64,000 nt of DNA from Quadrisphaera granulorum (GTDB taxonomy: Bacteria > Actinomycetota > Actinomycetes > Actinomycetales > Quadrisphaeraceae), in the NCBI RefSeq assembly GCF_003149145.1, contig NZ_QGDQ01000004.1, positions 1-64,000 of the forward strand. The letters are read 5' to 3'. The translations under genes were made by a program, and so were the position numbers. Positions 7,058 through 53,465 of this stretch are shown here, one piece after another. Below the pieces are notes generated by a model that was not told where the DNA came from, ran no database searches, and saw only the letters and a program-made list of their open reading frames with translations. Numbering within the stretch: position 1 is the stretch's first letter; each line of letters begins with the position of its first letter.

Positions 7058-7254
7058 CGATCTGGGGAGGTCCGAGGCGTCGACGACGAGGACGCCCATG
7101 GCCCACCTCCAGCCGGATGCTCCCGAGCATCATCCGTCCGCCACAACACGGAGGAGGCGAATGGTGAAGGGTTGCCGTGGGCCTCCATCCCCTTTGATGG
7201 GGACATCGGGCATCGACGACTCACGCCGCCCTTGACCCACGCTAGGAATCGCCC

Positions 7255-35138: not shown

Positions 35139-35206
35139 GGGCCGTGAGCCTACTTCTGCGCCGCGCGGCGGTCCCGGGCCAAGTCGGCGTGGTAGGCACT
35201 GCCCCC

Positions 35207-36343
35207 GTGACCGTCTCCGCGTCCCGACCCCGCTGGCTCGTCATGGCCACCCACGTGCCGGCGTCGGGCCGCCTGGGCGGCATCGTGAGGTACACCGTGG
35301 AGGTGGCGCGGGCACTGCAGCGTCGCGACGACGTCGAGGTGCACCTGCTGACCTCCGCCGCCGCTGCCGAGCCCCTCGCCGAGCTCGTGGGCGGGCCGGC
35401 GCGAGTGCACGCCGTCCCCGCCGTCCTCGACGGTCGCGCCGGCCCACTGCTGCCCCCGTACGAGAGGTACCTGCTGGGCTGGACCCTGCGCGACTCCTTC
35501 GACGTGGTCCACGGCTCCAAGCACCTCGTGCCCTCCCGCGCCCCCGGCTTCACCGCCAAGACGGTGCTCACGGTGCACGACATGATCCTCGCCGACCGGC
35601 CCGCCGACTTCCCGCCGGCCAAGCGCGTGCTGCTGCAACGCCCCTACGCGGCGTCCATCCGCCAGGCCGACTCGCTCATCTGCGTCAGCGGCGCCACACG
35701 CGACCGGTTGCTCGCGCACCACCCGCAGGTCGCCGACCGCGCCGCCGTCGTGCTCTCGGCCACCAGCCCCACCCTGCTCGAGGCCGACCCCACGCCGGTG
35801 GACCAGCTCGCCGGCAAGCGCTTCGGGCTGATCGTGGGTGACACCACGCAGCGCAAGAACGTCGCCACCGCGGTGTCCGCGTGGGCGCGGACGCTGCGCG
35901 AGCACCCGGAACACTCCGACGCCGTGCTCGCGCTGGTCGGTCCGCCCGCGTGGGGCACCGAGGCCTACGGACCCGACCGCGCCGCCCTGGTCGCCTCCGG
36001 GCACCTGGTGCAGCTGCAGGGCATCGACGACGCCGCCCTCCGCTGGTGCTATGAGAACGCCGCGGTGGTGCTCGCCCCGAGCCTCGTCGAGGGCTTCGGG
36101 CTGCCCGCCGTCGAGGCCCTGGACCTGGGCGCCTCGCTGGTGACCAGCACCGACCCGGCACTCGTCGAGGTCAGCGGTGACCGCGCGCTGCACGTCCCGG
36201 CGCTCGACGTGGCCGGCTGGGCGACGGCGATCGCCTCCCACCTCGCCCCGGGGACCGCGCGTCGCGGGCGACCCGCCGACGCCGTCCGCACCTGGGACGA
36301 GGTCGCCGAGGACACCGTGAAGGTGGTCTTGCACCGCGCGTGA
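35207..36343 (+). CDS. Glycosyltransferase family 4 protein (GT4)
   Basis: The 378-residue cytosolic enzyme has a GT-B fold. N-terminal MATHVPASGRLGGIVRYTVE forms the acceptor loop, TVLTVHDMILAD lies mid-domain, and the C-terminal donor site includes RFGLIVGDTTQRKNVATAVS and VVLAPSLVEGFGLPAVEALD (E-x7-E). GTG 35207 places the start just before the first strand; the frame upstream to 35144 overlaps the divergent aminotransferase promoter. It likely adds a nucleotide-sugar residue to the repeat unit. Substrate cannot be read. Confidence 0.9.
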   Translation: MTVSASRPRWLVMATHVPASGRLGGIVRYTVEVARALQRRDDVEVHLLTSAAAAEPLAELVGGPARVHAVPAVLDGRAGPLLPPYERYLLGWTLRDSFDVVHGSKHLVPSRAPGFTAKTVLTVHDMILADRPADFPPAKRVLLQRPYAASIRQADSLICVSGATRDRLLAHHPQVADRAAVVLSATSPTLLEADPTPVDQLAGKRFGLIVGDTTQRKNVATAVSAWARTLREHPEHSDAVLALVGPPAWGTEAYGPDRAALVASGHLVQLQGIDDAALRWCYENAAVVLAPSLVEGFGLPAVEALDLGASLVTSTDPALVEVSGDRALHVPALDVAGWATAIASHLAPGTARRGRPADAVRTWDEVAEDTVKVVLHRA

Positions 36344-36595
36344 ACCGCAGGTGAATGTTGTGTTTCTCCGCGCAGAGCGCTAATACCAGACGCTGATACC
36401 AAAGGGGCAAAACGGACGTTCACTCGTTGTGGGCATTCCCGCTGCCCCTGGAGTTACGCCATAGTGGGACCGTCCACTTCCCTCCTAGGGTCCGTGGGCT
36501 GGCGCGAAGAAGCTCCCCGGGGGGCCTTCGCGCCAGGGGGGAGGGCTGCGCGCCTCGAGGTCAGGTCCCACCTGTCTACCCCGGAAGGTGCTCGC
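36344..36595 (+). promoter_or_regulatory. Leader region with direct repeats and a strong hairpin
   Basis: TAATACCA and TGATACCA (about 36382-36402) form a spaced direct repeat resembling an operator, with TTGTGT 17 nt upstream of TAATAC as a weak promoter. Farther on, 36499-36509 pairs perfectly with 36526-36536 (CTGGCGCGAAG arms). GGAAGG and ATG 36596 follow. The hairpin stands 60 bp before the gene, so it might attenuate transcription or protect the leader. Confidence 0.45.
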
Positions 36596-37783
36596 ATGTC
36601 GCAGCAGCCGCGCGCCACGATCGTCCATGAACGGTTCACCGAGTACGCCGGCTCCGAGGCCGTCGTCGAAGCGCTTGCCCGTCGCTGGACCTCCGCTCCG
36701 CTGCTGGCTCCTGTGGGGCGTCGCGGGGTGCTCCCGTCCGACCTCGAGCTCCGGCTGACCACCACGCCGCTGAGTCGCCTCCTGCGCGGCAGCACCTACG
36801 CCCACCTCCTGCCGGCGCTGCCCGTGGCCATGCGCACCCTGCGCCTGCCCGAGTCCGACGTCGTCATTGCCTCCCACCACGCCTTCGCCACCCAGGTAGC
36901 GATGAGCACCTCCACACCCGTCGTGGCGTACGTCCACACCCCGGCGCGCTGGATCTGGGAGTCCTCGATGCGCAATGCCGAGGGCGGTGGCCTGGGCGCC
37001 GCCGGCCTGGCGGCGTTCTCGGCAGCGTTCAAGCCGTTCGACCGTGAGGCCGCCCAGCACGTGCACACGATGCTGGCCAACTCCTCGTTCGTGGCCGACC
37101 GCATCCGCCGCTGGTGGGGCCGTGAGGCCGAGGTGGTCGCTCCCCCGGTGAACACCGACTACTACCGCCCCGACCACCGCACGCCCCGTGAGGACTTCTT
37201 CCTCCTCGCCGGGCGTCTCGTGCCCTACAAGCGCCCCGACCTGGCCATCCAGGCAGCGGCCCGTGCCGGCGTCAAGCTGATCGTGGCCGGCGAGGGCCGA
37301 GCGATGGAGCACGTCAAAGCGCTGGCCGGCCCGGAGACCACGTTCGTCGGGCGTGTCAGCGACGACGAGCTGCGCAGCCTCTTCCGCCGCTGCCGCGCCC
37401 TGCTCATGCCCGGCGTGGAGGACTTCGGCATCGTGCCGGTGGAGGCTCAGGCCTGCGGCGCTCCCGTCATCGGCATCGGCGAGGGCGGCACGCTCGACAC
37501 CATCCGTCCGGGGGTCACCGGTGAGCTCGTCACCCCGGTGATGGACGACGCCACCGCCGAGGTCGATGCGTGGGCGCAGGCCCTGGTCGACTTCGAGCCC
37601 TCTGCGTACGACTCTACGAAGATCCGCGCCCACGCCGAGACCTTCTCCCGCGCCAGCTTCAGCGCCCGCATGGGCGCCGTCGTCGACCGGGTGCTGCAGG
37701 GCCCGGCAGTGCCCCGTCCTCGCCGTCACCCGCTGGGCATCCCCACCGCCGCCGCTCCCGGCCAGCTGGCCGCCGCCGGATGA
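36596..37783 (+). CDS. Glycosyltransferase family 4 protein (mannosyltransferase-like)
   Basis: The 395-residue GT-B protein reads ATIVHERFTEYAGSEAVVEA, VVAYVHTPARWIWESSMRNA, VNTDYYRPDHRTPREDFFLL, AGRLVPYKRPDLAIQAAARA and RALLMPGVEDFGIVPVEAQA. The R-x-x-x-Y-K-R and E-D-F-G-I-V-P-V-E patterns are typical of WbaZ/mannosyltransferase-like GT4 enzymes. GGAAGG lies 8 nt before ATG 36596. Its last base overlaps the next gene (ATGA), so the acyltransferase is co-translated. Confidence 0.9.
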   Translation: MSQQPRATIVHERFTEYAGSEAVVEALARRWTSAPLLAPVGRRGVLPSDLELRLTTTPLSRLLRGSTYAHLLPALPVAMRTLRLPESDVVIASHHAFATQVAMSTSTPVVAYVHTPARWIWESSMRNAEGGGLGAAGLAAFSAAFKPFDREAAQHVHTMLANSSFVADRIRRWWGREAEVVAPPVNTDYYRPDHRTPREDFFLLAGRLVPYKRPDLAIQAAARAGVKLIVAGEGRAMEHVKALAGPETTFVGRVSDDELRSLFRRCRALLMPGVEDFGIVPVEAQACGAPVIGIGEGGTLDTIRPGVTGELVTPVMDDATAEVDAWAQALVDFEPSAYDSTKIRAHAETFSRASFSARMGAVVDRVLQGPAVPRPRRHPLGIPTAAAPGQLAAAG

Positions 37784-39195
37784 ACCCCGCCGGCAGAACT
37801 CCCCGACTGCCGGCGCTCGACGGACTGCGTGGCCTCGCCGCCCTCGTGGTGGTGCTGTTCCACGCAGCCGTCATCGTCCCCTCGCTGGGACGCCCCTACG
37901 GCCCTGACCCGGCCCCAGGCACCCCCTGGGTGCTCGCACAGACGCCGCTGCACGTGCTGTGGTCCGGCGAAGAAGCGGTCTACGTCTTCTTCGTCCTCTC
38001 GGGCTTCGTCCTCGCCCTGCCCCTGGTCAACGGGGCACGTCCGGCACTGCGCACCTGGGTCGTCTACTACCCGCGGCGGCTCGTGCGGCTCTACCTGCCG
38101 GTGGCGGCCAGCCTCGTGCTCGCTCTCCTCGCGGTCACGCTGGTGCCACGCACCGTGCACGAGGGCGCCAGCTGGTGGCTCAACGGGCACGCGGAGCCGG
38201 TCACGGCCGCGGGCCTGGTGAAAGACCTCACGCTGGTAGCGGGCAACACCTGGCTCAACAGCCCGCTGTGGTCGCTGCGATGGGAAGTGCTCTTCTCCCT
38301 CGCCCTACCGGCGTACGTGCTGTTCGCCCGGATCACGCGCCGTGTCTGGTGGCTGGCCGCAGGTCTGCTGGCGCTCGCCACCGCGGCGTTCGCCCACTTG
38401 GACGTGCAGGCGCTGTTCTACCTGTCGATGTTCGCGATCGGTGCCGTAGCGGCCGTCCACTCAGAGGCACTGCGCCAGCGTGTGGAGTCGTGGGGTCGCG
38501 TCGGCTGGATCACGGTGGCCGTCGTCGCCGTGGCCCTGCTTGAAGTGACCTACCTCGCGCCGCAGGTGCACCTCACGAAGTTCGCGGGGCTCGTCGCCGC
38601 CGTCGGGGTGTTCCTGCTGTTCCTCGGGGCGGGTCCGGTGGTCCGCTTCGGCGCCAGCCGGCCCGTGGCGTGGCTCGGCAAGATCTCCTTCAGCCTCTAC
38701 CTCGTCCACGTGCCGGTGCTGGTGAGCATCGGACAGGTAGCGACCATGCTCGGGGCCCCCGCGGCAGCGGCCCTCGCTGTCGTGGTGGGCCTCCCGCTGA
38801 GCCTGCTGCTGGCGGCAGGGTTCCACCGCGTCTGCGAGTCTCCCTCGCACCGGCTGTCGCTGCGGGCGGGCAGAGCGGTGGGAGACCTCTACGACAGGTT
38901 CCTCCACCGTCCCCTGGTGCTGCCGGAGACCCCGCAGCTCACCTGGGCCGACCGCGACATGACGCCGCCGGCGCCGCGCAGCGAACGGCCGGACGCACAG
39001 CCGGTGGCCGCACGCCTGGCCACCCGGCCGCTCACGCCACCGCGTGGAGTACCCGCGGTCCTCGCCCAGCGCGGACCAGCCCCGCAGACGGGCCCCATCG
39101 TGCCGCCGCATCCGCATCCGCAAGCGCAGCACCATCCAGCCCCGGCGACTTCGGTCTCGTCGGCGGGAGAGCCCGTCACCAGCGACACCGCGTAA
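37780..39195 (+). CDS. Acyltransferase 3 family membrane protein
   Basis: The 471-residue protein has the acyltransferase-3 motifs LPALDGLRGLAALVVVLFHA, YVFFVLSGFVLALPLV, PRRLVRLYLPVAASLVL, WSLRWEVLFSLALPAYV and WLGKISFSLYLVHVPVLV, with about ten hydrophobic helices. A Pro-rich, disordered tail of about 90 residues (from WADRDMTPPAPRSE) has no counterpart in the other two family members here. It should O-acylate an exported or lipid-linked sugar. The ATG at 37780 overlaps the preceding stop. Confidence 0.92.
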   Translation: MNPAGRTPRLPALDGLRGLAALVVVLFHAAVIVPSLGRPYGPDPAPGTPWVLAQTPLHVLWSGEEAVYVFFVLSGFVLALPLVNGARPALRTWVVYYPRRLVRLYLPVAASLVLALLAVTLVPRTVHEGASWWLNGHAEPVTAAGLVKDLTLVAGNTWLNSPLWSLRWEVLFSLALPAYVLFARITRRVWWLAAGLLALATAAFAHLDVQALFYLSMFAIGAVAAVHSEALRQRVESWGRVGWITVAVVAVALLEVTYLAPQVHLTKFAGLVAAVGVFLLFLGAGPVVRFGASRPVAWLGKISFSLYLVHVPVLVSIGQVATMLGAPAAAALAVVVGLPLSLLLAAGFHRVCESPSHRLSLRAGRAVGDLYDRFLHRPLVLPETPQLTWADRDMTPPAPRSERPDAQPVAARLATRPLTPPRGVPAVLAQRGPAPQTGPIVPPHPHPQAQHHPAPATSVSSAGEPVTSDTA

Positions 39196-39306: not shown

Positions 39307-41955
39307 TCAGGAGGCCTCGGCGGCCAGCTCGGCGAGCGCGAGCGCCCGCGCGCGAGACATCCCGTACGGCGGGCGCCACCCGGCGGCGCGCAGCTTGTCG
39401 CCGGAGAACCGCAGGCGCCACAGCGGGTTGCCCAGCGCGGGCACCTTGAAGCGCCGCAGGTCGTTGGCCCAGTCCAGGACCCCCGGGGCCGGAGGCAGGA
39501 GGAGCTTGCGGTCACCGGTGACGCCCGCGGCGTCCCGCAGGAACGACGCGTGGGTGGCACCGGGGGCGTCGTCCTCGGAGACGTTGAACACCTCCACCGA
39601 GCCCGGCGCCCCGTGGCCGGCCAGGCCGCGGGCCAGGCACCAGATGGCTGCGTCGGAGACGTCGCGCACGTACACGTGGTGCGCGTGGCGGTGTCCGCCG
39701 ATGACGCGCTTGCCGATGCCCCAGCGCGCCACCTCGGCCACCTGGTGGACGTCGACCACCACGGTGGGCCGCAGCACGGCGTAGCGCGTCTGCGAGGCTG
39801 CCTCGCGGACCGCGAGTTCGCCGAGCAGCTTGGTGCGGCCGTAGGCGCGCACATAGGCCAGCGCGAGGTACTCCGCGGGCACGTCACGGTCGGGCGTGAG
39901 GGTCGGTGAGTCTTCCGTGACGGTGCGGCGACGGGCGCTGCCGTACACCGACACCGTGCTCGTGTAGACGAAGGACGCGACCCCCGCCCGCTCAGCGGCC
40001 CGTGCGAGGGTGCCGGTAGCGCGGTGGTTCACCGCCTCCATGACCTCCTGGTCGCCGATCTCCGCGGCGAGGTGCAGCACGCCGTGCACGCCTGCGAGCA
40101 GGCTGTCAGCGGTGGCGTCGTCGAGGGTGCGCAGGTCGACCTGGCGCCACTCGAGCGATCCCCCTGCCCCGTCAGCTGCGCCGCTGACCTCGGCGACCGG
40201 GCGCGACGTCGTGGCGCGCACGCGGTACCCGCGCGCGAGCAGGTCTTCGCGCACCACCCTGCCGATGCGCCCCGTGGCGCCGGTGAGGAGCACCGTGGTC
40301 TCGTCGGGGCGCGCCGGGCGATGCTCAGCCGGCGCCAGCTCGGGCGCCACGGCCACGCTCGCACGTAGGTGGTCGGCCAGGCGCACGCTCATCGCCACGG
40401 CCAGCTGCGTGGGGTTGCAGTGGCCCGCGGTGGGGAACGTGGAACTGCCCACCACGTACAGCCCGGCCACGCCGTGGACCTGGCCGTCGACGTCGACGAC
40501 GCCGGTGGACGGGTCGGACGACATGCGCGTCGTGCCCGTGGGGTGGGCGACGTCGACGAAGCTCGGCGGCAGCTCGCCGTCCTCGTAGACCCACGGCTCC
40601 AGGCGCGGCGCGGGCAAGCCCATACGGGGCAGCTGCTCGGCCACCACCTGCGCCATCCGCTTCATGGAGCGAGTCTCGTCGTCGTGGATGCGCCAGTCCA
40701 GGCGCGGCAGCGGGTTGCCGAACGGGTCGAGCGCGTCCGACAGCGTGATGCGGGAGTCGGGGTCGGGCCGCTGCTCGGCCATGACCAGCAACACCAGGCC
40801 GTCGAGCTTGCGGGGCACGCCGTTGCGCTCCACGAGGTAGTCCTTGACACCGCGGGCGAGCAGCGGCGCGTTGCGCGCCACGGCAGCCACCTCGCGGGGG
40901 CTGGGGTGGCCACCGGCGATACGGCGCAGGGCGGCCCACGGGTCGTCGTCGGACCACTGCTCGTTGACGTAGGCGCTGACGTTGAGCAGCTGCTCCGCGC
41001 GCTGCAGCTCGGGGCTGAGCCGCAGCCCGCCGCGGAAGAAGCGGCCCTGCACGTTGTAACGGCCCAACCGCTTGGTGAGCTGGGCGGTGGTGGTGACGTC
41101 GAAGTCACCGACGGGACCGCGCGGGTGGTCCATGAGGAACCTGCCGACGAGGTCACGGTCGTTGCCGACGCCGTGCTGAGCGGTCTCACGAGAGGCGAGG
41201 AGCAGCCGCGCGTTCTCCACACCGCCGGTGGCCAGGACGACGGTGCGCGCCAGCACCTCGAAGGGCTGCCCGGACGGCGGGGTGACGCGCACGCCCCGCA
41301 CCGCGCCACCGTGCGGCTCCACGAGCACGGAGGTCACCGTGGCGCTTAGGACGACGGTGGTCTCCGGCCCGACGCGCTCGGTGACGGTGCGCCCGAAGCG
41401 CGCGTACTCGAAGGGGTAGCTCTCGCGCGGGTCGCGGGAGAACTGCCAGAAGTAGCTGAGCAGCTGGGAGGGGTCGGGCTCGGCCTCGGCCGGTGGCTTG
41501 CGGCGGCCCGCGAGCGCCCAGAACTCCTCGCCGGTGTACCCGGAGCCGACGGCCAGGCCCAGGTGGGCGGCGCTGCGGTCGTAGTAGGGCTTCAGGGTGG
41601 CGGGGTCGATCGGCCAGCCGGAGTGGGGCACCCAGGGGCGGTGCTCGAAGTCGATCTCGTCGAAGGTGCCGCAGCGCCCACCCCAGGTGTGGGAGGAGCC
41701 GCCGAGCACGCGGTTGCGCACCGACCACTGGTCTTCCGCGCGGGGACGCCCGACGCTCTCCACGACGTCGAGGGCGTCTGCGAGGTCGGTGCGGTCGGTG
41801 GCGCCGCTCTCCAGCAGGAGCACCCTTAACCCGCTTCCGGCCAGCTCGGAGGCCAGCGAGGTGCCGGACGGACCGGAGCCCACCACCACCACGTCAGCAC
41901 CCGCGAGAGCGGTCGAGTCGGTGGCGCCACGGTCGGCAAGGTCGATCACGGGCAT
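39307..41955 (-). CDS. Fusion of GMC-type FAD oxidoreductase and extended SDR epimerase
   Basis: The 882-residue protein starts at ATG 41955 (AGGGGAGTGG upstream). Residues 1-540 form a GMC oxidoreductase: the Rossmann motif VVVVGSGPSGTSLASELAGS, VLGGSSHTWGGRCGTF, and the C-terminal VVGSSTFPTAGHCNPTQLAV. Residues about 550-882 are an extended SDR: VLLTGATGRIGRVVREDLLA, LDDATADSL, SFVYTSTVSVYGSARRRTV, and the catalytic Y705-G-R-T-K709. The enzyme could oxidise a sugar alcohol and then act on the nucleotide sugar. No stop or ribosome site separates the halves. It is divergent from the mutase-like gene. Confidence 0.88.
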   Translation of the reverse strand: MPVIDLADRGATDSTALAGADVVVVGSGPSGTSLASELAGSGLRVLLLESGATDRTDLADALDVVESVGRPRAEDQWSVRNRVLGGSSHTWGGRCGTFDEIDFEHRPWVPHSGWPIDPATLKPYYDRSAAHLGLAVGSGYTGEEFWALAGRRKPPAEAEPDPSQLLSYFWQFSRDPRESYPFEYARFGRTVTERVGPETTVVLSATVTSVLVEPHGGAVRGVRVTPPSGQPFEVLARTVVLATGGVENARLLLASRETAQHGVGNDRDLVGRFLMDHPRGPVGDFDVTTTAQLTKRLGRYNVQGRFFRGGLRLSPELQRAEQLLNVSAYVNEQWSDDDPWAALRRIAGGHPSPREVAAVARNAPLLARGVKDYLVERNGVPRKLDGLVLLVMAEQRPDPDSRITLSDALDPFGNPLPRLDWRIHDDETRSMKRMAQVVAEQLPRMGLPAPRLEPWVYEDGELPPSFVDVAHPTGTTRMSSDPSTGVVDVDGQVHGVAGLYVVGSSTFPTAGHCNPTQLAVAMSVRLADHLRASVAVAPELAPAEHRPARPDETTVLLTGATGRIGRVVREDLLARGYRVRATTSRPVAEVSGAADGAGGSLEWRQVDLRTLDDATADSLLAGVHGVLHLAAEIGDQEVMEAVNHRATGTLARAAERAGVASFVYTSTVSVYGSARRRTVTEDSPTLTPDRDVPAEYLALAYVRAYGRTKLLGELAVREAASQTRYAVLRPTVVVDVHQVAEVARWGIGKRVIGGHRHAHHVYVRDVSDAAIWCLARGLAGHGAPGSVEVFNVSEDDAPGATHASFLRDAAGVTGDRKLLLPPAPGVLDWANDLRRFKVPALGNPLWRLRFSGDKLRAAGWRPPYGMSRARALALAELAAEAS

Positions 41956-42106
41956 GGCCACTCCCCTGGTGGGTCTACCGGTCGGTCTGCCGGTACGTCT
42001 TGGCGCGGCGACCCTAGCGGTGCCCCTGACCTTCTTGGGGGGACTGGCGCCGGGGCTGATGGCAAGGGTCCCCCCGTCAGGGGGCGAGTAGCCCATACTC
42101 CGCCGC

Positions 42107-43459
42107 ATGCCTTCGATGCCCTCACCGCCGGCAAGCGACCACTACGACGCGTTGGTCCTCGGAGCGGGGATCAGCGGCCTGGTGTCCGCATCGGTGCTGC
42201 TGGAGCAGGGCGCGCGGCGCATCGCCGTCGTCGACGTCTACCCCCGCGCGGGCGGCAACCACCTCGATGTGGAGATCGGGCCGTACACGTTCGACATCGG
42301 CAGCCTGGTGTTCCAGGACGACTCCCCCCTGCTGCGTCACTTCCCCGAGCTGCTGCCGCTGTACGTGCCGATCGACCCGTCGTGGTTGCGCCTGAACCCC
42401 CAGGGCACCGTGACCACGTACCCGTTCTCCCCTCGTGACGACATCCTCCGCGCCGGCCCGGTGGAGGTCGTGCGGCTGCTCGCGTCAGCGGTGTCCGCGC
42501 GGCTCAAGCGCGCTCCGCAGCGCAACGCGCGCGACTTCGCCGAGCACTGGCTGGGCCCGCGCTTCGTGCACCGCAGCGGCCTGGGCAGCTACATGGAGCG
42601 GTTCTGCGGGGTGCCGACCGACCAGATCGACACCGAGTTCGCGCAGAGCCGGATGATGTGGATCGCCGAGCACGCGCAGGTGCGCAACCTCATCAACCGC
42701 GTGCTGGAGCCGCTGCGTCGCCGCCCCGCGGCGGGCCCCACCAACCAGCAGCTGGCGCGGCCCCGCTCGGGCTTCGCGGAGCTGTACGCCCCCGTCGTCG
42801 CCGGTCTGGAGGCCCGAGGGGTGACGTTCACCGTCGGGACCGAGCTGAAGGCTCTGGAGCGCACGGACCAGGGCCATGGGGACGACGACGGCGACCGCAT
42901 GTTCACGCTGCACACCGGCGCGGGAGCGTTCAGCGCCCCGCGGGTGGTGTCGACGGTTCCCGTGGACGTAGCACTCGACCTGTGCGACCTGCGAGAAGGG
43001 CGAGAGCCGCTGCCCACGGTGCGCCTGGTCACCCTCTTCTACAGCTTCGCCGGGAAGCGCGGCTTCGACTCCTCGGTGTTCTACAACTTCTCCCACGAGG
43101 GCACCTGGAAGCGCCTGACGGTGTACTCCGACTTCTACGGCCCCGCGCAGGAGCGGGAGTTCTTCGCGGTGGAGGTGGTCTCCTCCCGCGGCGCGCAGAC
43201 CGCTGAACAGGCCGACGCCGCCTTCCGCGAGCACGTGGCCGCCAACGGTCTGCTGCGCGGTGACCTGCGCCTGGAGGGCAGCCACGTGCTCGAGCACGCC
43301 TACCCCATCTACACACTCGGCAGCGGCGAACGAGCACGCGAGGCGATGGCTGCGCTGCGCGCCTACGGCGTGGAGTCCCTGGGCCGCCAGGGCGCGTTCC
43401 AGTACCAGCCGACGGCGCGACACTCCACGCTGGAGGCAGAAGCAGCGCTTCGACGCTGA
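42107..43459 (+). CDS. FAD/NAD-binding UDP-galactopyranose-mutase-like protein
   Basis: The 450-residue protein has G-x-G-x-x-G at residues 19-24 (ALVLGAGISGLVSASVLLEQ), VVDVYPRAGGNHLDVEIGPY, a C-terminal FAD strand (ALRAYGVESLGRQGAFQYQP) and LVTLFYSFAG. The G-G-N-x-x-D and H-F-P patterns fit the UGM/NAD-binding_8 group of flavoproteins, which includes mutases and desaturases. It probably modifies a nucleotide sugar in the cytosol. Residues about 257-264 encode HGDDDGD from a copy of the GTC-rich repeat on the other strand. A short intergenic region (151 bp) is shared with the divergent GMC fusion. Confidence 0.72.
   Translation: MPSMPSPPASDHYDALVLGAGISGLVSASVLLEQGARRIAVVDVYPRAGGNHLDVEIGPYTFDIGSLVFQDDSPLLRHFPELLPLYVPIDPSWLRLNPQGTVTTYPFSPRDDILRAGPVEVVRLLASAVSARLKRAPQRNARDFAEHWLGPRFVHRSGLGSYMERFCGVPTDQIDTEFAQSRMMWIAEHAQVRNLINRVLEPLRRRPAAGPTNQQLARPRSGFAELYAPVVAGLEARGVTFTVGTELKALERTDQGHGDDDGDRMFTLHTGAGAFSAPRVVSTVPVDVALDLCDLREGREPLPTVRLVTLFYSFAGKRGFDSSVFYNFSHEGTWKRLTVYSDFYGPAQEREFFAVEVVSSRGAQTAEQADAAFREHVAANGLLRGDLRLEGSHVLEHAYPIYTLGSGERAREAMAALRAYGVESLGRQGAFQYQPTARHSTLEAEAALRR
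42876..42894 (-). repeat. GTC-rich repeat copy inside the mutase-like gene
   Basis: The minus strand reads TCGCCGTCGTCGTCCCCAT, identical to the start of repeat copy B. On the gene's strand it encodes an acidic HGDDDGD insertion in a loop between two beta strands. Confidence 0.6.
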
Positions 43460-44382: not shown

Positions 44383-44553
44383 TGTCACTGCAGGTCACTC
44401 CGGGATCCACCGAGGGTGACGTGATCGGGCGCGGTGCCCCCTCTCTTGGGGGAACTTCGGCACGCGCTGCCTCTCGGCGGGGTGCCAGCCGTGGACGCGC
44501 GGGCATCATGGCGACCGCGCGTCGACCTGCACCCAACCCAGACAGGAACCGCC

Positions 44554-45627
44554 ATGAGGATCATGCACCTGCTCAAGCACGCGGTTCGGGGAAATGGGCA
44601 CGTGCACGTCGCCGTCGACCTGGCGTGCGCGCAGGCCGACGCGGGGCACCAGGTGTGGTTCGCCAGTGCGCGCGGCTCCTACGACGAGCTGCTGCGCAAG
44701 CACGGCGTGCATGTCACCGACCTCCCCGAGCCCACGGGCAAGAAGGAGATCGTCCGCAACGCCAAGGCGATGCTGTCGCTCGCCGCCCGCACGCGGCCGG
44801 ACATCATGCACGCACACATGATGAGCTCGGCGCTGGTGGCCTTCCCGGTGTCCAAGGTGATCGGCGCGACGCTGGTGACCACCGTGCACAACAGCTTCGA
44901 CGGGCACTCGAAGCTCATGCGCCTGGGCAGGATGGTCATCGCGGTGAGCGAGGCCGAGCGCCAGCAGCTCATCCAGCGGGGGTTCAAGCCCGACCGGGTC
45001 GTGACCGTGCTCAACGGCGCGGATGCCTCCCCTCGTGAGGAGCTGCCGCGGGACGACATCGGCGATCTCCGCCGACCCGCCGTCCTGTCCCTGTCAGGGC
45101 TGCACGCCCGCAAGGCCGTCGACGACATCATCAGCGCGTTCGCCCTGGTCCACCCTGAGCACCCCGAGTGGCACCTCAACATCGTGGGGTGGGGTCCGGA
45201 CCGCGAGAAGCTCGAGGCACAGGCGCGTGAGCTGGGCTTGGCCGAGTCCGTGCACTTCCTGGGCACGACGCTGACGCCGCGCTACCTGCTCGACCAGGCG
45301 GACATCTTCGCGTCCGCGTCCCTGGCCGACCCGTGCCCGCTGACCACCACCGAGGCGCGCGGCTCCGGCTGCGCGCTCATCGGTACCACGGTCGGCGGCG
45401 TGCCCGAGGTGCTCGAGCACGGCAAGGCCGGCCAGCTGGTGCCCCCGCGCGATCCGGCGGCGCTGGCTCAGGCGATGCGTCGCCTCATGGCCGACCCCGC
45501 CGAGCTGGCGGCGTGGCGAGAACGCTCGCGTACGGGCGCGGAGCACTTCACGGTCGCGCGGGTGGCTCGCGACCACGAGGACGTCTACCGCTTGGCGATG
45601 GGTGCGCGGCGGCGAACCGCCCGGTAA
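44554..45627 (+). CDS. Glycosyltransferase family 4 protein
   Basis: The 357-residue GT-B protein starts MRIMHLLKHAVRGNGHVHVA and includes PDIMHAHMMSSALVAFPVSK, TLVTTVHNSFDGHSK, VSEAERQQLIQRGFKPDRVV, LSLSGLHARKAVDDIISAFA and IFASASLADPCPLTTTEARG in the donor domain. ATG 44554 follows CAGGAACC by 7 nt. The last 43 bp overlap the 3' end of the convergent gene at 45585. Sugar specificity is not visible. Confidence 0.88.
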   Translation: MRIMHLLKHAVRGNGHVHVAVDLACAQADAGHQVWFASARGSYDELLRKHGVHVTDLPEPTGKKEIVRNAKAMLSLAARTRPDIMHAHMMSSALVAFPVSKVIGATLVTTVHNSFDGHSKLMRLGRMVIAVSEAERQQLIQRGFKPDRVVTVLNGADASPREELPRDDIGDLRRPAVLSLSGLHARKAVDDIISAFALVHPEHPEWHLNIVGWGPDREKLEAQARELGLAESVHFLGTTLTPRYLLDQADIFASASLADPCPLTTTEARGSGCALIGTTVGGVPEVLEHGKAGQLVPPRDPAALAQAMRRLMADPAELAAWRERSRTGAEHFTVARVARDHEDVYRLAMGARRRTAR

Positions 45628-46874
45628 CCGTTGCGCAGGCCGTACAGCGCCTCCACGGCCAGCAGCACCGGCAGCCGCAGCGGGGTGGCCGACCTGGCCA
45701 CCTCGCCCTCGCGCCACATGCCGTCGCTGCGAAGCACCTCGAGGAGCCCCCGCTGCTCGGGCTGGGTCCAGGTCTCCTCGCGGCCGAAACCGTGGGACCG
45801 CGCCTCCACCGACATCGCCCAACCGTGGTCGGGCGTGGGCAGGACGACGGCGCGGTGCAACTGCCCCCAGGCACGGTCGGCGTCGAGCACCACCTTCTCG
45901 GCGGGTGCGGGCGGCAGGGCGTCGAGGTAGGCGAGCACCCCGGCGAACGGGGTGCCCGGTGCCGGCACCACGAGGTCCTCCCAGCCGTCCACCTCGGTAT
46001 CGGCCACGACGCGGCCGTCGGCGCGGCGCTCGAAGCGGCTCGTGCTGCGCAGCGGCGGCTCGAACAGCCACTCCACGAAGTGCCAGTAGCGCAGCAGCAC
46101 GCTGCGCCGCTGCAGCAGTGAATAGTCGTGGGCGGTGACCGAGAGCCCGTAGGTGCGGTGGTCGGCGGCGGTGCCGGGGCGGAAGGAGCGCGCGATGAGC
46201 GCGCAGCTCGTCTGCTCCCGCAGCCCGGCCTCCGCGAGTAGGTCGCGCGTGGTGCCGTAGAGGCCGGTGTCGACGAGCAGCGCGTGCTGGCGCCCGTCGA
46301 GCTGCTGGCGCAGGTGCTCCACGAAGAGATCCGCCTGCTCCTCCAGCGCCTCAGTCACGAGCGCGCCGTCGGGCGAACGCAGCAGTGCGGCGAGGCCGTC
46401 CGGCGTGAACGGCTGGGATAGCGGCGCGGCCGCACCGGCAGGCAGCTGCTCCGGCCCGACGCCGCTGAGGGCCTTCACGGCCGCCCCCAGGTCGAGGACG
46501 GCGAACTCCTTGGCCAGCGCAGCGGCGGCCGAGGGCAGCAGGTGGTCCAGGCCCTCGCGCGGGGTGCGGACCAGCACGGGGCGCACCGCCGCGAGCCGGG
46601 AGACCATCAGGGGGCGCAGGGACACGGCGGTCGGTAGCCCCGAGGAGGCAAGGAAGCGCTCGTGGGCCAGCTGCATCCGCAGCCCGCCGCGGGCGCAGAA
46701 GAGCATGGCCGTGTCCTCGGGACGCTCCAGCTGGGTGCCGAGCGTCCACAGCCGCAGACAGAACTCGGCGACCACCGGGCCCAGCACGTCACGCCCGAAG
46801 GACTCCGGCGTCACCTCGGCGGACCGGGGCGCCCCGCCCAGCTCGCGCGTGGCGCTCGTCGTCGTCGTGCTCAT
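45585..46874 (-). CDS. COG5610 C-terminal-like partner of the HAD protein
   Basis: The 429-residue protein has AMLFCARGGLRMQLAHERFL, then VSLRPLMVSRLAAVRPVL, resembling the second half of COG5610 proteins found in capsule loci (F-L-A-R-D-G...Y...S-R). The usual R-D-G reads R-G-G here. Mid-protein HALLVDTGLYGTTRDLLAEA and a C-terminal basic end are conserved in appearance. ATG 46874 has GAGGAGGG upstream and overlaps the HAD stop by 4 nt, so the two are made together. In other organisms the two parts can be one protein. Function is unknown, probably in glycan assembly. Confidence 0.6.
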   Translation of the reverse strand: MSTTTTSATRELGGAPRSAEVTPESFGRDVLGPVVAEFCLRLWTLGTQLERPEDTAMLFCARGGLRMQLAHERFLASSGLPTAVSLRPLMVSRLAAVRPVLVRTPREGLDHLLPSAAAALAKEFAVLDLGAAVKALSGVGPEQLPAGAAAPLSQPFTPDGLAALLRSPDGALVTEALEEQADLFVEHLRQQLDGRQHALLVDTGLYGTTRDLLAEAGLREQTSCALIARSFRPGTAADHRTYGLSVTAHDYSLLQRRSVLLRYWHFVEWLFEPPLRSTSRFERRADGRVVADTEVDGWEDLVVPAPGTPFAGVLAYLDALPPAPAEKVVLDADRAWGQLHRAVVLPTPDHGWAMSVEARSHGFGREETWTQPEQRGLLEVLRSDGMWREGEVARSATPLRLPVLLAVEALYGLRNGYRAVRRRAPIAKR

Positions 46875-47719
46875 CGAGCCCTCCTCAGGGCGGAGGGCAG
46901 CGCCGCGGCGCCGCCGAGGATCTTGGCCGCGCGGAACGCGCCCTCGCGCGGTAGGTGCACCGCCGTCCAACCGGCCTCGCGTGACCTCTGCACGTCGGCG
47001 CTCGGGTGGTCACCGACGTGCACGGCGCGGGCCGGGTCGACACTCTCGCGCTGCGCGACCAGCGGGTACAGCCCGCCGCGGTGCTTGGTGGCGCCCTCGT
47101 CGGCGCTGGAGTACACCCTGTCGATCGGGAGCTCACGCGAGCCGAGGCCACCGGAGGATCCCCCGGTCCGGTCGGCGCCGGTGACAGTAGCGAGCAGCCA
47201 GCGGACGTCGTCCTCGCTGTAGTAGGTGTCCGAGACCGCCACGACGCGCACGCCGGCGGCACGCACGCGGCGGAAGACCGCCAGCAGCGGGCGGTTGGGC
47301 CGCAGGTGCTCGGCATCGACGGCGAGCTCGGCGTCGTGCAGGGTCTTCGCCGCGCCGTCTCCCAGCCCGAGGGAGGCGGCCACCGCGGCGCACATCATCG
47401 TCAGCGACGCCTCGCCGTCCGGCCGCTCCATCGACACGGCCCGGTACCCCGACGCGTGCGCCTCCCAGCGCAGCCGCGCCAAGGCGCCCGGGTCGACCCC
47501 CAGCTCGGGGGCGGCGCGGCGCGCCGCCGCCGCCAGACGCTGGGCCTCGGTGGTGTGGTCTCGCAGCAGCACGGTGTCGAAGACGTCCGTGGTGAGCAGC
47601 TGCACGTCGCCGCGCAGCACCTCGCGCTCCAGCTGCGCGAGCCGCTCGCGCTGGTGCAGCGCCCGGCCGACCCGGCTCCTGATCCCGTCCACCCTGCTCA
47701 CGAGCGGCGAGCCTGGCAC
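46871..47719 (-). CDS. HAD-superfamily hydrolase-like protein (COG5610 N-terminal type)
   Basis: The 282-residue protein has HAD motif I as LLTTDVFDTVLLRD (D-x-D with the second Asp replaced by Val-Phe-Asp), motif II RVVAVSDTYYSEDDV, a Lys in GATKHRGGL and motif III/IV VHVGDHPSADV. The context (capsule locus, COG5610 partner overlapping its stop) suggests a role in polysaccharide biosynthesis or handling. The first motif is slightly atypical, so phosphatase activity is not certain. It is divergent from the flippase gene. Confidence 0.75.
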   Translation of the reverse strand: MPGSPLVSRVDGIRSRVGRALHQRERLAQLEREVLRGDVQLLTTDVFDTVLLRDHTTEAQRLAAAARRAAPELGVDPGALARLRWEAHASGYRAVSMERPDGEASLTMMCAAVAASLGLGDGAAKTLHDAELAVDAEHLRPNRPLLAVFRRVRAAGVRVVAVSDTYYSEDDVRWLLATVTGADRTGGSSGGLGSRELPIDRVYSSADEGATKHRGGLYPLVAQRESVDPARAVHVGDHPSADVQRSREAGWTAVHLPREGAFRAAKILGGAAALPSALRRAR

Positions 47720-47787: not shown

Positions 47788-49323
47788 GTGACACGCTGGT
47801 CACACAGGGTTCAGCACCCCGTCACCCGCCTGGCCGGGCCAGCTGAGAGGTTCCTGAAGAGCGACGCTCGCCGTCCCTTACAGCACCTACCCTCCACATT
47901 TGTGACGAACGCCGCGGGAGAGACCACGAACCCTCCGGAAGGAGGCCACCCCCGCGGCGGCGCGAAGATCGACGCGGAGCCCTCGCAGCCGGCTCCGCCC
48001 GCCGCGAACCTGCGGCGCGCCGTGGGGTTCATGACCGTCTCGAGCTTCCTCGTGCCGCTGGCCGGGCTGCTCACGCAGCCGCTGTTCGCGCGTGCCCTCG
48101 GTGTCGACGGCCGCGGTGAGCTGCAGGCGGCGCTCGCGCCGGCGGCGCTGGCCACCGCGGTGGCTACCCTCGGCCTGCCCGACGCACTGACGTACTTCAC
48201 CGCGCGCAACCCGCGCATCACGCGGGTGGCACTGGCGTGGGCCGGCACGCTGTCGCTGCTCGTCGGCGTCGTGTGCCTGGCCGTGGTGTGGGGGCTGCTG
48301 CCGTGGTTGAGCAAGGGTGACGCCCAGCTGGGCGAGTACATCCTGGTCGGGATGGTCCTGGCGATCCCGCTGCTCGCGGTCGGTGCCCTGCGGGGCGCTG
48401 CCATGGGGCACCAGCTGTGGCGCCGGGTGGCGCTGGAGTCGTTCGTCAACATCACCCTGCGGGTCGGCAGCCTGGTCGTGCTGTTCGTCATGGGCCACCT
48501 GACGCCGCTGGCCGCCGTCGTCGTCACCTCCGTGACGCCGCTCCTGGCGGGCCTGGTCTACCTGCCGCTGCTGCGCAGCTCGGCGCATCACCCGGAGGCC
48601 ACCGAGGAGCAACCGAACGGCGTGCTCAGACCGCTGCTGTCCTTTGGGGCGCGGGTGTGGTTCGGATCGGTGGCCAGCATGCTGCTCTCCCGCGTGAGCC
48701 AGGTGCTCATGGTGCCGCTGAGCAGCACCTACGACCTCGGCCTCTACGCCGTGGCGTCCACCATCTCCGACCTGCCACTGCTCGTGGCGCTCGCTGTCGC
48801 CGGTGCGCTCATGGGCGTCAACGCCCGCTCCAACGACCCGGTGCAGGTGGCCACCACCACACGCCTGGGCGTGCTGCTGGGCGCGGTGGGCTGCGGGGGC
48901 CTGGCGGTGACCCTGCCGTTCTGGATCGTGCCGCTGTTCACCGAACAGTTCGCCGCCGCGCTCATACCGACGTTGATGCTCATCGCGTCAGCGCTCATCT
49001 GCGTGCCGGGCCTCATGACCGGCGCGAGCCTGTCGGCGTTCGGGCGGCCTGGTCTGCGCAGCACCGGCCTGGTGGTGACCGTGGTGGTGAACGTCACCGC
49101 GTTCGTGACGCTGGTACCGCTGCTGGGCGTCTACGGCGCCTGCTGGACGTCGATCATCAGCAACGTGGTGCTCACCAGCTGGAACGTCATCGCCGCGTCG
49201 AAGGTCATGGGGCTTCCCCCGACGATGTTCCTCGTACCGCGCGGCAGCGACGTGTCCCTCGCCTGGACCGAGGGCCTGCGCCTGGTGAACCGGGTGCTGC
49301 CCGGCCGCCGCGCGGCCGCCTGA
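47788..49323 (+). CDS. Wzx-like polysaccharide flippase (MOP superfamily)
   Basis: This up to 511-residue protein has about 12-14 membrane helices, for example TVSSFLVPLAGLLTQPLFAR, LSLLVGVVCLAVVWGLL and LRVGSLVVLFVMGHLTPLAA, ending VNVTAFVTLVPLLGVYGACW. This is the layout of Wzx flippases that move lipid-linked repeat units across the membrane. The start is uncertain: GTG 47788 includes a poorly conserved leader of about 75 residues, GTG 47902 is an alternative, and transmembrane segments begin near residue 80. It is convergent with the Wzz/Wzc-like gene 4 bp away. Confidence 0.85.
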   Translation: MTRWSHRVQHPVTRLAGPAERFLKSDARRPLQHLPSTFVTNAAGETTNPPEGGHPRGGAKIDAEPSQPAPPAANLRRAVGFMTVSSFLVPLAGLLTQPLFARALGVDGRGELQAALAPAALATAVATLGLPDALTYFTARNPRITRVALAWAGTLSLLVGVVCLAVVWGLLPWLSKGDAQLGEYILVGMVLAIPLLAVGALRGAAMGHQLWRRVALESFVNITLRVGSLVVLFVMGHLTPLAAVVVTSVTPLLAGLVYLPLLRSSAHHPEATEEQPNGVLRPLLSFGARVWFGSVASMLLSRVSQVLMVPLSSTYDLGLYAVASTISDLPLLVALAVAGALMGVNARSNDPVQVATTTRLGVLLGAVGCGGLAVTLPFWIVPLFTEQFAAALIPTLMLIASALICVPGLMTGASLSAFGRPGLRSTGLVVTVVVNVTAFVTLVPLLGVYGACWTSIISNVVLTSWNVIAASKVMGLPPTMFLVPRGSDVSLAWTEGLRLVNRVLPGRRAAA

Positions 49324-49327
49324 GCGG

Positions 49328-50680
49328 CTACTCCCCGAGCTGGGGCAGCGGCTGGGCGACCTGCACCGGCTTCGTCCGGCCCAGGTCGATACTGCGCACC
49401 CGGTCCAGCGCGAGGCTGGCGTTCTCGACGCCGACGCCGGCCAGGAGCTCGAGGGCGTAGAGGAGGTCGGCTCGGGTGGTGGCGCCGGACTCGACCACGA
49501 GGAGGGTGCTGTGCGAGAGCGCTGCCACCACTGACGACTCCGACCGCTCGACCAGCGGCGGGCAGGTCAGGAGCACGTAGTCGAACCTGTCGACGAGGCT
49601 GTCGATGAGCTGGCGCATCGACTGCGTGCTCAGCATCTGCGCGGACGACTCCTTGACGTGCCCTGCGCCGATCGTCCACACACCCTCGGAGGCACCGGGA
49701 GCGAGGACCTCGTCGAGAGTGGCGCTGCCGCCGAGGACGTCTGCCACACCCGGGGCATTGGCGCCGGTGTCCTGCGGGCGACGCCGGCGCGTCTGCACGG
49801 GCCGCAGGTCGGTGTCGACGACGACGACGTTCAGCCCGATCTCTCCCAGCACGCCCGACAGCTGCCGGGCCACCCCGGCAGTGTCGGAGGCGCTGGTGAC
49901 GCCGGCGATGGCGATGGCTCCGCCCACCTGGGCGCTGAACTGGAGATTGGCGCGCAGGTGGCGGAAGGACTCCAGCCGCAGGTCCGTCGCGGCGCCGGGC
50001 CGTCCGCCGCGACCGAGGCGACTGCCGGGCGCAGGCAGGGAGGTGGTGGTGGCCAACCGGGTACCGCGCGGGAGGTCGGCGAGACTGCGGATACGCGTGT
50101 CGAGCGCCTGCGCCACCACCAGCGCGCCGACGCCCAGGGCGAGACCGACGACGGCGCCGATGAGCAGGTTGTTCTTCGGCCGTGGGGTGTCGGGGGTGGC
50201 CGCGGCCACGGCCGGGGTCACCACGTCGAGCCGCAGCGGTGAGGAGCCACCGCCGTCGATGGTGCGGGCCTGGTCGATGAGGGCGTCGGCCACCGCGTTG
50301 GCGCGGTCCGCCGCCAGCGTGCCGGAGTCTCCCGAGCCCACGACGTTGAGGATCGCCGTGCCGGTGATGGCGTTGGCCGAGGCATTGCTGCGCAGCGTCT
50401 CGACGTCCTGCCCCAGCGCCGCGGCGGCGTTCTGCAGCACCGCGGTGGAGGTGGCGAGCTGGGCGTAGGTGCCGGTCCGCTCGGTGGCGAAGGCGTTGCC
50501 CGCCGCGAGGCCGGTGGCGGTGCCGTCGTTGGTGGTGGTGACCACCACCTGGGCGGTGGCGCCGTAGACCGGCGTCATGAAGGCGGTGGCGAGGTTGGCG
50601 AGCCCCAGCCCGACCAGCGTGGTGGCCACGATGATCAGCCAGCCCCGCCTGAGCATGCGCAGGTAGTCGGACAGCGTCAT
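49328..50680 (-). CDS. Wzz/Wzc-like chain-length protein with degenerate P-loop
   Basis: The 450-residue protein has a Wzz topology: N-terminal helix (WLIIVATTLVGLGLANLATA), a periplasmic-type helical region, and a second helix (NNLLIGAVVGLALGVGALVV, residues 170-189). The cytosolic part is bacterial tyrosine kinase-like (LRANLQFSAQVGGAIAIAG, VVVVDTDLRPVQ at 285-296), but the Walker A position reads SASDTAGVAR (263-272) with no G-K-S/T, and there is no Tyr-rich tail. It probably sets chain length or assembles export machinery without kinase activity. Its start overlaps the previous stop. Confidence 0.82.
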   Translation of the reverse strand: MTLSDYLRMLRRGWLIIVATTLVGLGLANLATAFMTPVYGATAQVVVTTTNDGTATGLAAGNAFATERTGTYAQLATSTAVLQNAAAALGQDVETLRSNASANAITGTAILNVVGSGDSGTLAADRANAVADALIDQARTIDGGGSSPLRLDVVTPAVAAATPDTPRPKNNLLIGAVVGLALGVGALVVAQALDTRIRSLADLPRGTRLATTTSLPAPGSRLGRGGRPGAATDLRLESFRHLRANLQFSAQVGGAIAIAGVTSASDTAGVARQLSGVLGEIGLNVVVVDTDLRPVQTRRRRPQDTGANAPGVADVLGGSATLDEVLAPGASEGVWTIGAGHVKESSAQMLSTQSMRQLIDSLVDRFDYVLLTCPPLVERSESSVVAALSHSTLLVVESGATTRADLLYALELLAGVGVENASLALDRVRSIDLGRTKPVQVAQPLPQLGE

Positions 50681-51897
50681 CAGCGAACTCCTCGGGTGGG
50701 CAGGACGGCGAGTCGCCGGCGCGCGGGCTGTCGATGCGCGAGTGCTTCGCGCAGGACGCTGAGGTGCGACGCTGTCACCTCGGAGCGGGAGAACCCGGCG
50801 GCGACGGCGCGGCGTGCGCTCACGGCCTCCGGGCGGGCCAGGTCCGGCGCGCGGCCGGCCAGGCGGACGAGCGCGGCGGCGAGGGAGGCCGGGTCTTCCG
50901 GGGCGGCCAGCTCGCCGATCTCGGGGCTCGTGATGATGTCGGCGGGGCCGAACTCGCAGTCGGTGGCCACGAGCGGCAGTCCCAGGTCGAGAGCCTCCAC
51001 GAGGGCCACGCCGAACCCTTCCCAGCGGGAGGCGAGCACGAAGGCATCAGCGGCCACGAGGTGGCGCACCGGGTCGGTGGCGTAGCCCTCGAACGTCACG
51101 ACGTCGTCGAGGCCCAGTTCGGTGCATCGCCGCCGCAGCTCGGGCTCGGTGTCTCCGCTGCCGACCAGGGAAAGGTGGACGGGCGGCAGGTCGGGGCGGG
51201 CCAGCGCGAGCGCTTCGAGCAGGAGGTCCTGCCCCTTCTGATAGGACAGGCGCGCCACGCAGACGAGCCGCAGGACGCCGTCGTCCGTCGTCCCCGTCCC
51301 CGACGTCCCGCTGCCGGTGGCCTGCAGCCCTCCGAAGCCGCGGACCGGGTTCGGGACGTAGCGCACGGGACGCCCGCACCCGACGAGCGTCTCGGCGGCC
51401 CGCGCCAGCGACGGCGAGACGGCGAGGACCGTGGCGGCGCGGGGCCCCACGAGGTGCCGGTAGAGCCAGTAGGCCACCTTGGTGCGGCGGGTGCCGTCAC
51501 CCTCTTCCACGCGGGGATTACCGTGCAGGTGCGTGACGAACGCCGGGTTGCCCAGGCCCCGCGTGGCCAGCCACACGGTGACGGCGGCCTCCACCTGGGG
51601 CACCACGAGAACGTCGGGGCGGATCCGGGCGACGGCGGCTCGCACCGCCCGCGGCAAGGTGCGGAGCCGGTCGGCGCCGAGCACGTGCTGGGTGTACGGG
51701 GTGTCGCGCAGCACGGGCTCGTCAAAGGCGTTGGAGAAGATCACGTGCACGTCGAGCTCGTCACCGTGCTCGCCGGCCAAGCCCGACGCCACCTCGTGCA
51801 CCACACGCTCGATGCCTGCGAAGTGCTCGGACGGAGAGACGAAGTACGCCACCGTCACCTGGTCGCCGCGGGCCATGCGCGGGAGAGTAGTCATCAA
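50680..51897 (-). CDS. Glycosyltransferase family 4 protein
   Basis: The 405-residue GT-B protein contains AYFVSPSEHFAGIERVVHEV, PAFVTHLHGNPRVEEG, YVPNPVRGFGGLQATG, LVCVARLSYQKGQDLLLEAL and AFVLASRWEGFGVALVEALD (E-x7-E). The central linker TGSGTSGTGTTDDGV is low complexity. It overlaps the Wzy-like stop (ATGA) upstream and the Wzz-like start (TGATG) downstream, so the three are one operon. Specificity is unknown. Confidence 0.9.
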   Translation of the reverse strand: MMTTLPRMARGDQVTVAYFVSPSEHFAGIERVVHEVASGLAGEHGDELDVHVIFSNAFDEPVLRDTPYTQHVLGADRLRTLPRAVRAAVARIRPDVLVVPQVEAAVTVWLATRGLGNPAFVTHLHGNPRVEEGDGTRRTKVAYWLYRHLVGPRAATVLAVSPSLARAAETLVGCGRPVRYVPNPVRGFGGLQATGSGTSGTGTTDDGVLRLVCVARLSYQKGQDLLLEALALARPDLPPVHLSLVGSGDTEPELRRRCTELGLDDVVTFEGYATDPVRHLVAADAFVLASRWEGFGVALVEALDLGLPLVATDCEFGPADIITSPEIGELAAPEDPASLAAALVRLAGRAPDLARPEAVSARRAVAAGFSRSEVTASHLSVLREALAHRQPARRRLAVLPTRGVR

Positions 51898-53294: not shown

Positions 53295-53450
53295 GCGGGC
53301 CCCTTCCAGCCGCTGGCCAGCGGACTGTCGGACTTCACGCCCGCGCTCGCGGGCGACCCGGAACACCCGCCGCGTGGGATAGTAGGGCGCCCTCAGCGCC
53401 CACGGACGTGCGTCGGCTGCAGCCAGGCTGCTGCCACCCGTCCAGCCCGT

Positions 53451-53465
53451 GGAGGAACCACCATT
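53451..53465 (+). promoter_or_regulatory. Ribosome site followed by a probable ATT start codon
   Basis: GGAGGA (53451-53456) is followed after 6 nt by ATT (53463-53465), which begins IRRTAITALAAALVVGVVAT. Reading in frame from 53283 to 53463 I find no ATG, GTG or TTG, and no stop. The ribosome site thus marks ATT as the likely initiation codon. Confidence 0.55.

Follow-up and report, generated by a model that had tools for sequence, protein, structure and literature searches.

The first 64,000 nucleotides of contig NZ_QGDQ01000004.1 of Quadrisphaera granulorum (the whole stretch analysed, hereafter the window) carry on their minus strand, at positions 39307-41955, a gene whose product joins a glucose-methanol-choline (GMC) flavoenzyme to an extended short-chain dehydrogenase/reductase (SDR), and we put at roughly one in two the probability that this protein works in an exopolysaccharide pathway as a bifunctional, two-step redox epimerase. 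The reaction that we propose from the sequence is as follows: in a cytoplasmic precursor, the GMC half with its FAD would oxidise one secondary hydroxyl of a pyranose, giving a keto sugar, and the tethered SDR half would use NADPH to reduce this keto group from the other side. One carbon centre would thereby be inverted, with NADPH pulling the net reaction forward. The substrate would probably be a sugar that the gene cluster already uses, as a nucleotide sugar or on a lipid carrier, because the best matched rhizobial clusters keep their set of glycosyltransferase families (below).

The initial annotation, which gave no strand, placed both enzyme families in one 882-residue frame with an intact Y-x-x-x-K, and raised the possibility of a stop between the halves. 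The minus-strand frame does translate without interruption into 882 residues and a stop, Pfam recognises both halves, the Y-x-x-x-K is present as YGRTK at residues 705-709, and no stop lies between the halves; the same register on the plus strand contains stops. An assembly artefact or a missed stop was rejected, since the frame is unbroken and fused relatives occur in five other genomes and in a distant one. The mechanically found open reading frame extends to an ATG at 42108 (933 residues), a start that was rejected because the Shine-Dalgarno-like AGGGGAG precedes the ATG at 41955 and the methionine of the relatives aligns in the same column as that ATG. The G+C content at the three codon positions of the 933-residue frame is 0.74/0.54/0.93, the pattern of a coding gene (the window has 71.5% G+C). 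A scan for promoters and terminators found 0 and 0, and the only full match in the organism's own genome is the protein itself, two more at 0.001 being weak and partial.

By sequence and modelled structure, we assign the GMC half to the sugar-oxidising branch of its family. The Pfam model GMC_oxred_C matches residues 397-522 with 90.3 bits (cut-off 24.6), and for GMC_oxred_N (cut-off 23) the window protein scores 22.5 bits and a split orthologue (L013) 34. Besides the FAD motif GSGPSG there are His471, within HPTGTTRM, and Asn514, within GHCNPTQ; these align with the His and Asn of FAD glucose dehydrogenase and are kept in 26 of 26 aligned GMC rows. In their families these two residues, and Thr667, Tyr705 and Lys709 of the SDR half, serve as catalytic residues. 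The closest PDB entries by profile are FAD glucose dehydrogenase and fructose dehydrogenase, then 6'''-hydroxyparomomycin C oxidase, with pyranose oxidases lower, and structure alignment of the model gave fructose dehydrogenase (Z 31.0, 458 aligned, 4.3 Å), C-glycoside oxidase (Z 30.0, 293 aligned, 2.5 Å), bacterial pyranose 2-oxidase with mangiferin (Z 29.6, 397 aligned, 3.6 Å) and DaCGO1 (Z 29.3, 385 aligned, 3.6 Å). Two more specific identities were rejected: pyranose 2-oxidase (TIGR02462, 63.4 bits, cut-off 544.9) and mycofactocin MftG (44.2, 42.1 and 40.1 bits, cut-offs 300, 387.45 and 400). The name of the paromomycin enzyme implies a primary alcohol, and so bears on an alternative in which the GMC half oxidises C6 to an aldehyde, the SDR half works on an adjoining step and the pair inverts no stereocentre; the same entry is titled C-glycoside oxidase, however, and the nearest structures by sequence and fold are mostly of enzymes acting on ring or secondary carbons; we consider this alternative improbable.

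The SDR half carries all the marks of an extended SDR, namely an Epimerase match (PF01370, residues 555-776) of 68.5 bits over a cut-off of 20.9, TGxxGxxG and YxxxK. The Tyr and Lys of YxxxK are present in 15 of 15 aligned SDR rows, and HRHAHHVYV or a near variant in 13 of 15 (the distant L021 and L022 differ). Its best fold matches are tied: cinnamoyl-CoA reductase (Z 22.5, 274 aligned, 3.8 Å), MoeE5 (Z 22.2, 259 aligned, 4.1 Å), kavalactone reductase (Z 22.0, 265 aligned, 3.6 Å) and UDP-GlcNAc 4-epimerase (Z 21.7, 250 aligned, 3.3 Å), among others. Fold and family score alone thus do not settle whether it is a reductase or an epimerase. Cinnamoyl-CoA reductase is fifth among the PDB sequence matches (E 8.6e-15), and its GYTVRGTVRNP aligns with GYRVRATTSRP of the SDR half, a motif that we take to mark an NADP type of site, reductase-like. 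This motif argues against a second alternative, in which the keto sugar made by the GMC half is retained or tailored, with the SDR half acting at a different carbon, for example as an epimerase or reductase on the keto intermediate, to give a modified rather than a simply inverted sugar. The tie between epimerases and reductases and the epimerase at the head of the sequence matches (below) speak for such a scheme, as does a member of this broad GMC group in Rhizobium SL42 (L023), whose neighbour is a DegT aminotransferase, a different kind of keto-consuming enzyme. Against it, the GMC-SDR module comes with no other tested family in the best matched clusters, and we consider this scheme rather unlikely.

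The AlphaFold2 model of the whole protein (14 aligned rows) has a mean predicted local distance difference test score (pLDDT) of 76.4 and a predicted template modelling score (pTM) of 0.61; the SDR half modelled alone (8 rows) has 77.7 and 0.81. The linker, residues 536-547, is modelled as a loose joint with pLDDT below 50, and confidence is also low at residues 89-95, 178-183, 295-308, 670-677, 687-699 and 827-848, so the model does not fix how the two sites lie with respect to each other. The N terminus has no signal peptide apparent by eye, which is in keeping with a cytoplasmic site. A viral structure library gave separate matches to GMC and to SDR proteins (best E 8.3e-15), and phage records gave no match at 1e-20.

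The two halves are genetically coupled in other bacteria. Full-length fused orthologues are found in Modestobacter muralis (L004), Demequina (L005), Lichenibacterium (L006) and Paracoccus (L014), as well as in a genome of the Modestobacter family (G1331, 61% over residues 1-879), and a distant fused relative (about 30-36%) in Paraburkholderia phymatum (L022). In rhizobia the halves are adjacent separate genes, as in L007-L010, L013, L015, L024, L025, L039, R. etli IE4771 (L059) and G528, with which R. phaseoli (L060, both halves matched) is counted, and a distant adjacent pair is present in Sinorhizobium fredii (L021). The overlap between the split genes is 11 bases in L013, 20 in L015 and 11 in L059.

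Among 72,556 plasmid records, 302 match the fusion at E 1e-5 and 14 of these cover at least 80% of the query. The genome searches score few candidates per genome, so their counts are lower bounds, and they are not blind frequencies, as the centres G399, G401 and G394 and the genome G397 were known beforehand. In the window's class 6/394 genomes match at 1e-60 and only its own has the full-length fusion; of its 59 near relatives 4 match at 1e-40, again only its own being fused, and other members of the genus gave 0/5. The split pair is present in 3 of 297 Rhizobiaceae genomes, 49 of which have some match at 1e-30 (nearly all GMC alone) and none a recognised fusion. The phylum of Rhizobiaceae gave 4 matches at 1e-70 and the pair in 2/398, both seen already, and the phylum of L011 a single match in 199, the centre itself with GMC only. 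The Modestobacter family gave 8 matches at 1e-70 and 2/112 fused, one of them the centre. The initial annotation knew of no common fusion of these families, and as far as sampled this holds (1/394 in the class, 2/112 in the Modestobacter family, 0 recognised in 297 Rhizobiaceae, all lower bounds); but the fusion recurs in other genera and belongs to a conserved cluster, and is therefore rare but repeated and no lone accident. Two long frames of the window's family (L054 and L055, 1100 and 1252 residues) were rejected as other fusions, because the GMC part ends the protein and the remainder of the frame is not recognisable coding sequence of a second domain.

In the GMC tree a single clade (100/100) unites the 14 core rows, the solo GMC of L011 among them, and its eight rhizobial split rows make up a subclade (99/95). 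In the SDR tree the five fused rows group together (98/97). Since two distant rows, S. fredii (split) and P. phymatum (fused), fall outside, at least two changes between fused and split states are needed. The trees left out G1331, G528, L059 and L060, as well as Neorhizobium EC2-8 (L025/L038), the last because its cluster (L038) has several genes broken into short frames, by decay or sequencing error.

Most fused or adjacent relatives sit at exopolysaccharide genes, and the window cluster (Table 1) has homologous counterparts on plasmids of rhizobia and Paracoccus, where sugar-transferase, export and GNVR/Wzz-type genes are present in addition. Cluster-type genes lie upstream of the Lichenibacterium fusion, two cluster glycosyltransferases lie beside the pair in L008, and the S. 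fredii pair adjoins a pyruvyltransferase, two GT2s and a GT4. There are two exceptions: the Modestobacter fusion is at a contig end with no matched cluster genes adjoining (the cluster is on another contig), and no cluster gene was matched around the Paraburkholderia fusion. The divergently transcribed neighbour at 42107 is a frequent member of this cluster across phyla. It is matched by 19 plasmid records (17/19 cover at least 80%), including 11 of the 12 with the closest GMC-SDR (H1-H12; the exception is Paracoccus), and by 5/297 Rhizobiaceae genomes, including all 3 with the pair, and 5/112 of the Modestobacter family, including both fused ones. Its homologue directly follows the fusion in Demequina, and Lichenibacterium has only a 27% match, located elsewhere. 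For the 42107 protein the PDB gave one match only at 0.01, to spermine oxidase in its N-terminal part.

The above comparisons place the halves together in polysaccharide clusters, but does the rest of the cluster change with them? Using 22 family queries, we compared 12 regions with the module, picked by the fusion search, and 4 without it, picked by the search with the 42107 protein; both halves are present in 12/12 of the former and neither in 4/4 of the latter (CIAT 899, R. tumorigenes 1078, R. lusitanum and R. rhododendri). The complete plasmid records of these four strains gave no match to the fusion at 1e-10 (plasmids only, and with no positive control). The same 14 of the 22 family rows tested are matched in Root1220 and CIAT 899 (13 families, the remaining row being a cross-match between two GT2s), and GMC and SDR are all that separates the two in this test. 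R. lusitanum agrees with CIAT 899 in these 14 rows and has neither half; R. tumorigenes 1078 and R. rhododendri lack the 'hydrolase' and have a YdcF match. In the CIAT 899 region (L040) the only unmatched gap above 1 kb between the outermost matched frames is 6645-8019. In rhizobia, then, the module is present or absent as a unit with the glycosyltransferase families unchanged, and most simply it would then be remodelling a sugar already in use in the pathway. A Geodermatophilaceae pair repeats the contrast only roughly: G1386, of the Modestobacter family, lacks the module and has most cluster genes of G1331, but the two are not cleanly matched. G1386 also has a 26% epimerase match and a second match to a sugar-transferase, and 18.5 kb from its homologue of the 42107 protein, at the stretch's edge, the GMC half is matched in part (37.6%) and the SDR half is not. 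The more divergent clusters of G1371 and G1410 have no pair in the stretches read.

This all-or-none presence, and the gene overlaps where the halves are split, also argue against a reading in which equal dosage is the only reason for joining two independent enzymes that have unrelated substrates; a flexible linker of about 12 residues and the occurrence of related GMC proteins alone would suit such an arrangement, which we think very unlikely.

The initial annotation suggested that an oxidised sugar might pass from one site to the other. This is partly supported: the GMC branch, catalytic residues, split orthologues, polysaccharide clusters and joint presence and absence all fit it. Several observations weigh against a two-step redox epimerase. 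Solo GMC relatives without this SDR occur (L011, L012 from Mesorhizobium, L016-L020 and L023); that of the Acidobacteriaceae (L011) has a different PF01370 SDR gene about 0.4 kb downstream, and that of Rhizobium SL42 lies beside an aminotransferase. Non-sugar GMC proteins align with the GMC half too, for example choline oxidase at a lower Z of 26.9. The top PDB sequence match of the SDR half is an NAD-binding UDP-GlcNAc C4-epimerase (6wjb, E 6.5e-18), and because it outranks the NADP-type reductases a classical epimerase has to be reckoned with. Several active-site loops, including the GGSSHTWGG region, are modelled at low confidence, and with the linker equally so no shared channel can be claimed. 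Finally, the query families came from GMC-positive clusters, so that a gene confined to GMC-negative clusters would escape, and G1386 has one more GT2.

A bolder form of the two-step redox epimerase, which we hold only tentatively, is that GMC-SDR proteins make up a sugar epimerase class not yet recognised: driven by NADPH and working in one direction only, they would invert a residue of the growing lipid-linked exopolysaccharide unit and so let a strain rewrite one coat sugar by gaining a single module and no new glycosyltransferase; conversion of glucose to a rare C2 or C3 epimer is an equally tentative example.

How does the fusion compare with known systems? Pyranose 2-oxidase, the C-glycoside oxidases and the FAD glucose and fructose dehydrogenases share the sequence, fold, His and Asn of the GMC half, and to our knowledge none of them has an SDR half. 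The GalE type and CDP-tyvelose 2-epimerase have the extended SDR fold and YxxxK in common with the SDR half, and this type provides its best sequence match. NAD-dependent sugar epimerases are reported to perform both steps with one tightly bound NAD (PMC9207888); the window protein differs in adding a flavin half and in its NADP-like motif. The closest likeness is to DprE1 (an oxidase) and DprE2 (a reductase), which invert a carbon on polyprenyl-linked ribose for a cell-surface glycan (PMC11127046); the authors of that paper state that they were aware of no further epimerases in O-polysaccharide side-chain systems. The fusion would likewise invert one sugar carbon with an oxidase and a reductase, but its halves are tethered, whereas DprE1 and DprE2 are two separate proteins with a known substrate. 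Its oxidase is moreover a GMC protein, and no DprE1-type family is among the 17 Pfam matches; DprE1 belongs to another flavoprotein family. Epimerisation of deoxynivalenol is also reported to proceed in two steps, through a quinone-dependent dehydrogenase and a yeast (PMC10146952); two agents likewise invert a carbon, and the process differs in being a non-sugar detoxification by other proteins. A GMC-SDR fusion is undescribed in the titles and abstract openings of open-access PMC literature among the matches listed. The arrangement of the protein is new, and the working principle to which its predicted function would conform is known.

If the two-step redox epimerase is real, it would realise the DprE1/DprE2 principle a second time with unrelated protein families, and bacteria of different phyla would alter one surface-polymer sugar by means of one optional module. 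Otherwise matched clusters with and without the module exist in cultured rhizobia, so the role is testable, and the prediction is sharp: a sugar should be changed in one polymer and not in the other. A tethered oxidase-reductase pair might also become a tool for making rare sugars.

Table 1. The fusion gene, its parts and the surrounding cluster genes in the window.
Feature	Position	Strand	Basis
Fused GMC oxidoreductase-extended SDR gene, 882 aa	39307..41955	-	Open frame, Pfam of both halves, full-length relatives elsewhere
Shine-Dalgarno-like AGGGGAG	41961..41967	-	Sequence reading; ends five bases before ATG at 41955
GMC half, residues 1-535; GSGPSG 26-31, His471, Asn514	40351..41955	-	Pfam, profile, alignment, structure comparison
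Linker, residues 536-547, pLDDT under 50	40315..40350	-	AlphaFold2 model
SDR half, residues 548-882; TGATGRIG 558-565, RATTSR 580-585 (NADP-like), Thr667, YGRTK 705-709, HRHAHHVYV 755-763	39310..40314	-	Pfam, alignment, structure comparison
GT4 glycosyltransferase (GT4a)	35144..36343	+	Pfam
GT4 glycosyltransferase (GT4b)	36464..37783	+	Pfam
Membrane acyltransferase (Acyl_transf_3)	37783..39195	+	Pfam
Divergent neighbour, FAD/NAD(P)-binding amine-oxidase-like protein ('UGM-like' for convenience only)	42107..43459	+	Pfam, cluster comparison
GT4 glycosyltransferase (GT4c); family matched in 16/16 compared regions	44434..45627	+	Pfam, region comparison
Homologue of C-terminal part of rhizobial 655-aa 'hydrolase'	45585..46970	-	Synteny; no Pfam match
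Homologue of N-terminal part of rhizobial 'hydrolase' (HAD-like in R. binae)	46871..47719	-	Synteny; no Pfam match of its own
Flippase (Polysacc_synt, Wzx-like)	47788..49323	+	Pfam
Wzz-type chain-length protein	49328..50680	-	Pfam
GT4 glycosyltransferase (GT50680)	50680..51897	-	Pfam, synteny
Possible Wzy-like membrane protein	51894..53813	-	Synteny only; no Pfam match of its own

The possible Wzy-like protein is 25-30% identical to rhizobial proteins, one of which has a sub-threshold Wzy_C match. The reverse of the fusion is seen in the same cluster: the 655-residue rhizobial 'hydrolase' (a HAD-like and an unknown part) has a pair of neighbouring genes as its counterpart in the window, in Demequina and in G1331. 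A 300-residue open reading frame at 43480-44382, between two cluster genes, has no Pfam match and no match in the compared clusters. Elsewhere, in G678 (L085/L086, C1 4378583-4381587), about 90 bases separate a lone GMC relative (43%) from a relative of the 42107 protein (46%), and no other tested cluster gene was matched in the 35 kb read. In Rhizobium SL42 the GMC relative (L023, 10466-13665) adjoins the DegT-type aminotransferase and a nonribosomal peptide synthetase/polyketide synthase (NRPS/PKS) cluster, a neighbourhood that suggests a keto-to-amino variant. Farther from the fusion, the window encodes what we take by eye to be a large serine/threonine-kinase-like protein (28245-31799, GRGGMGVVY) and, near its start (233-1549), presumably an IS110-like transposase, also named by eye.

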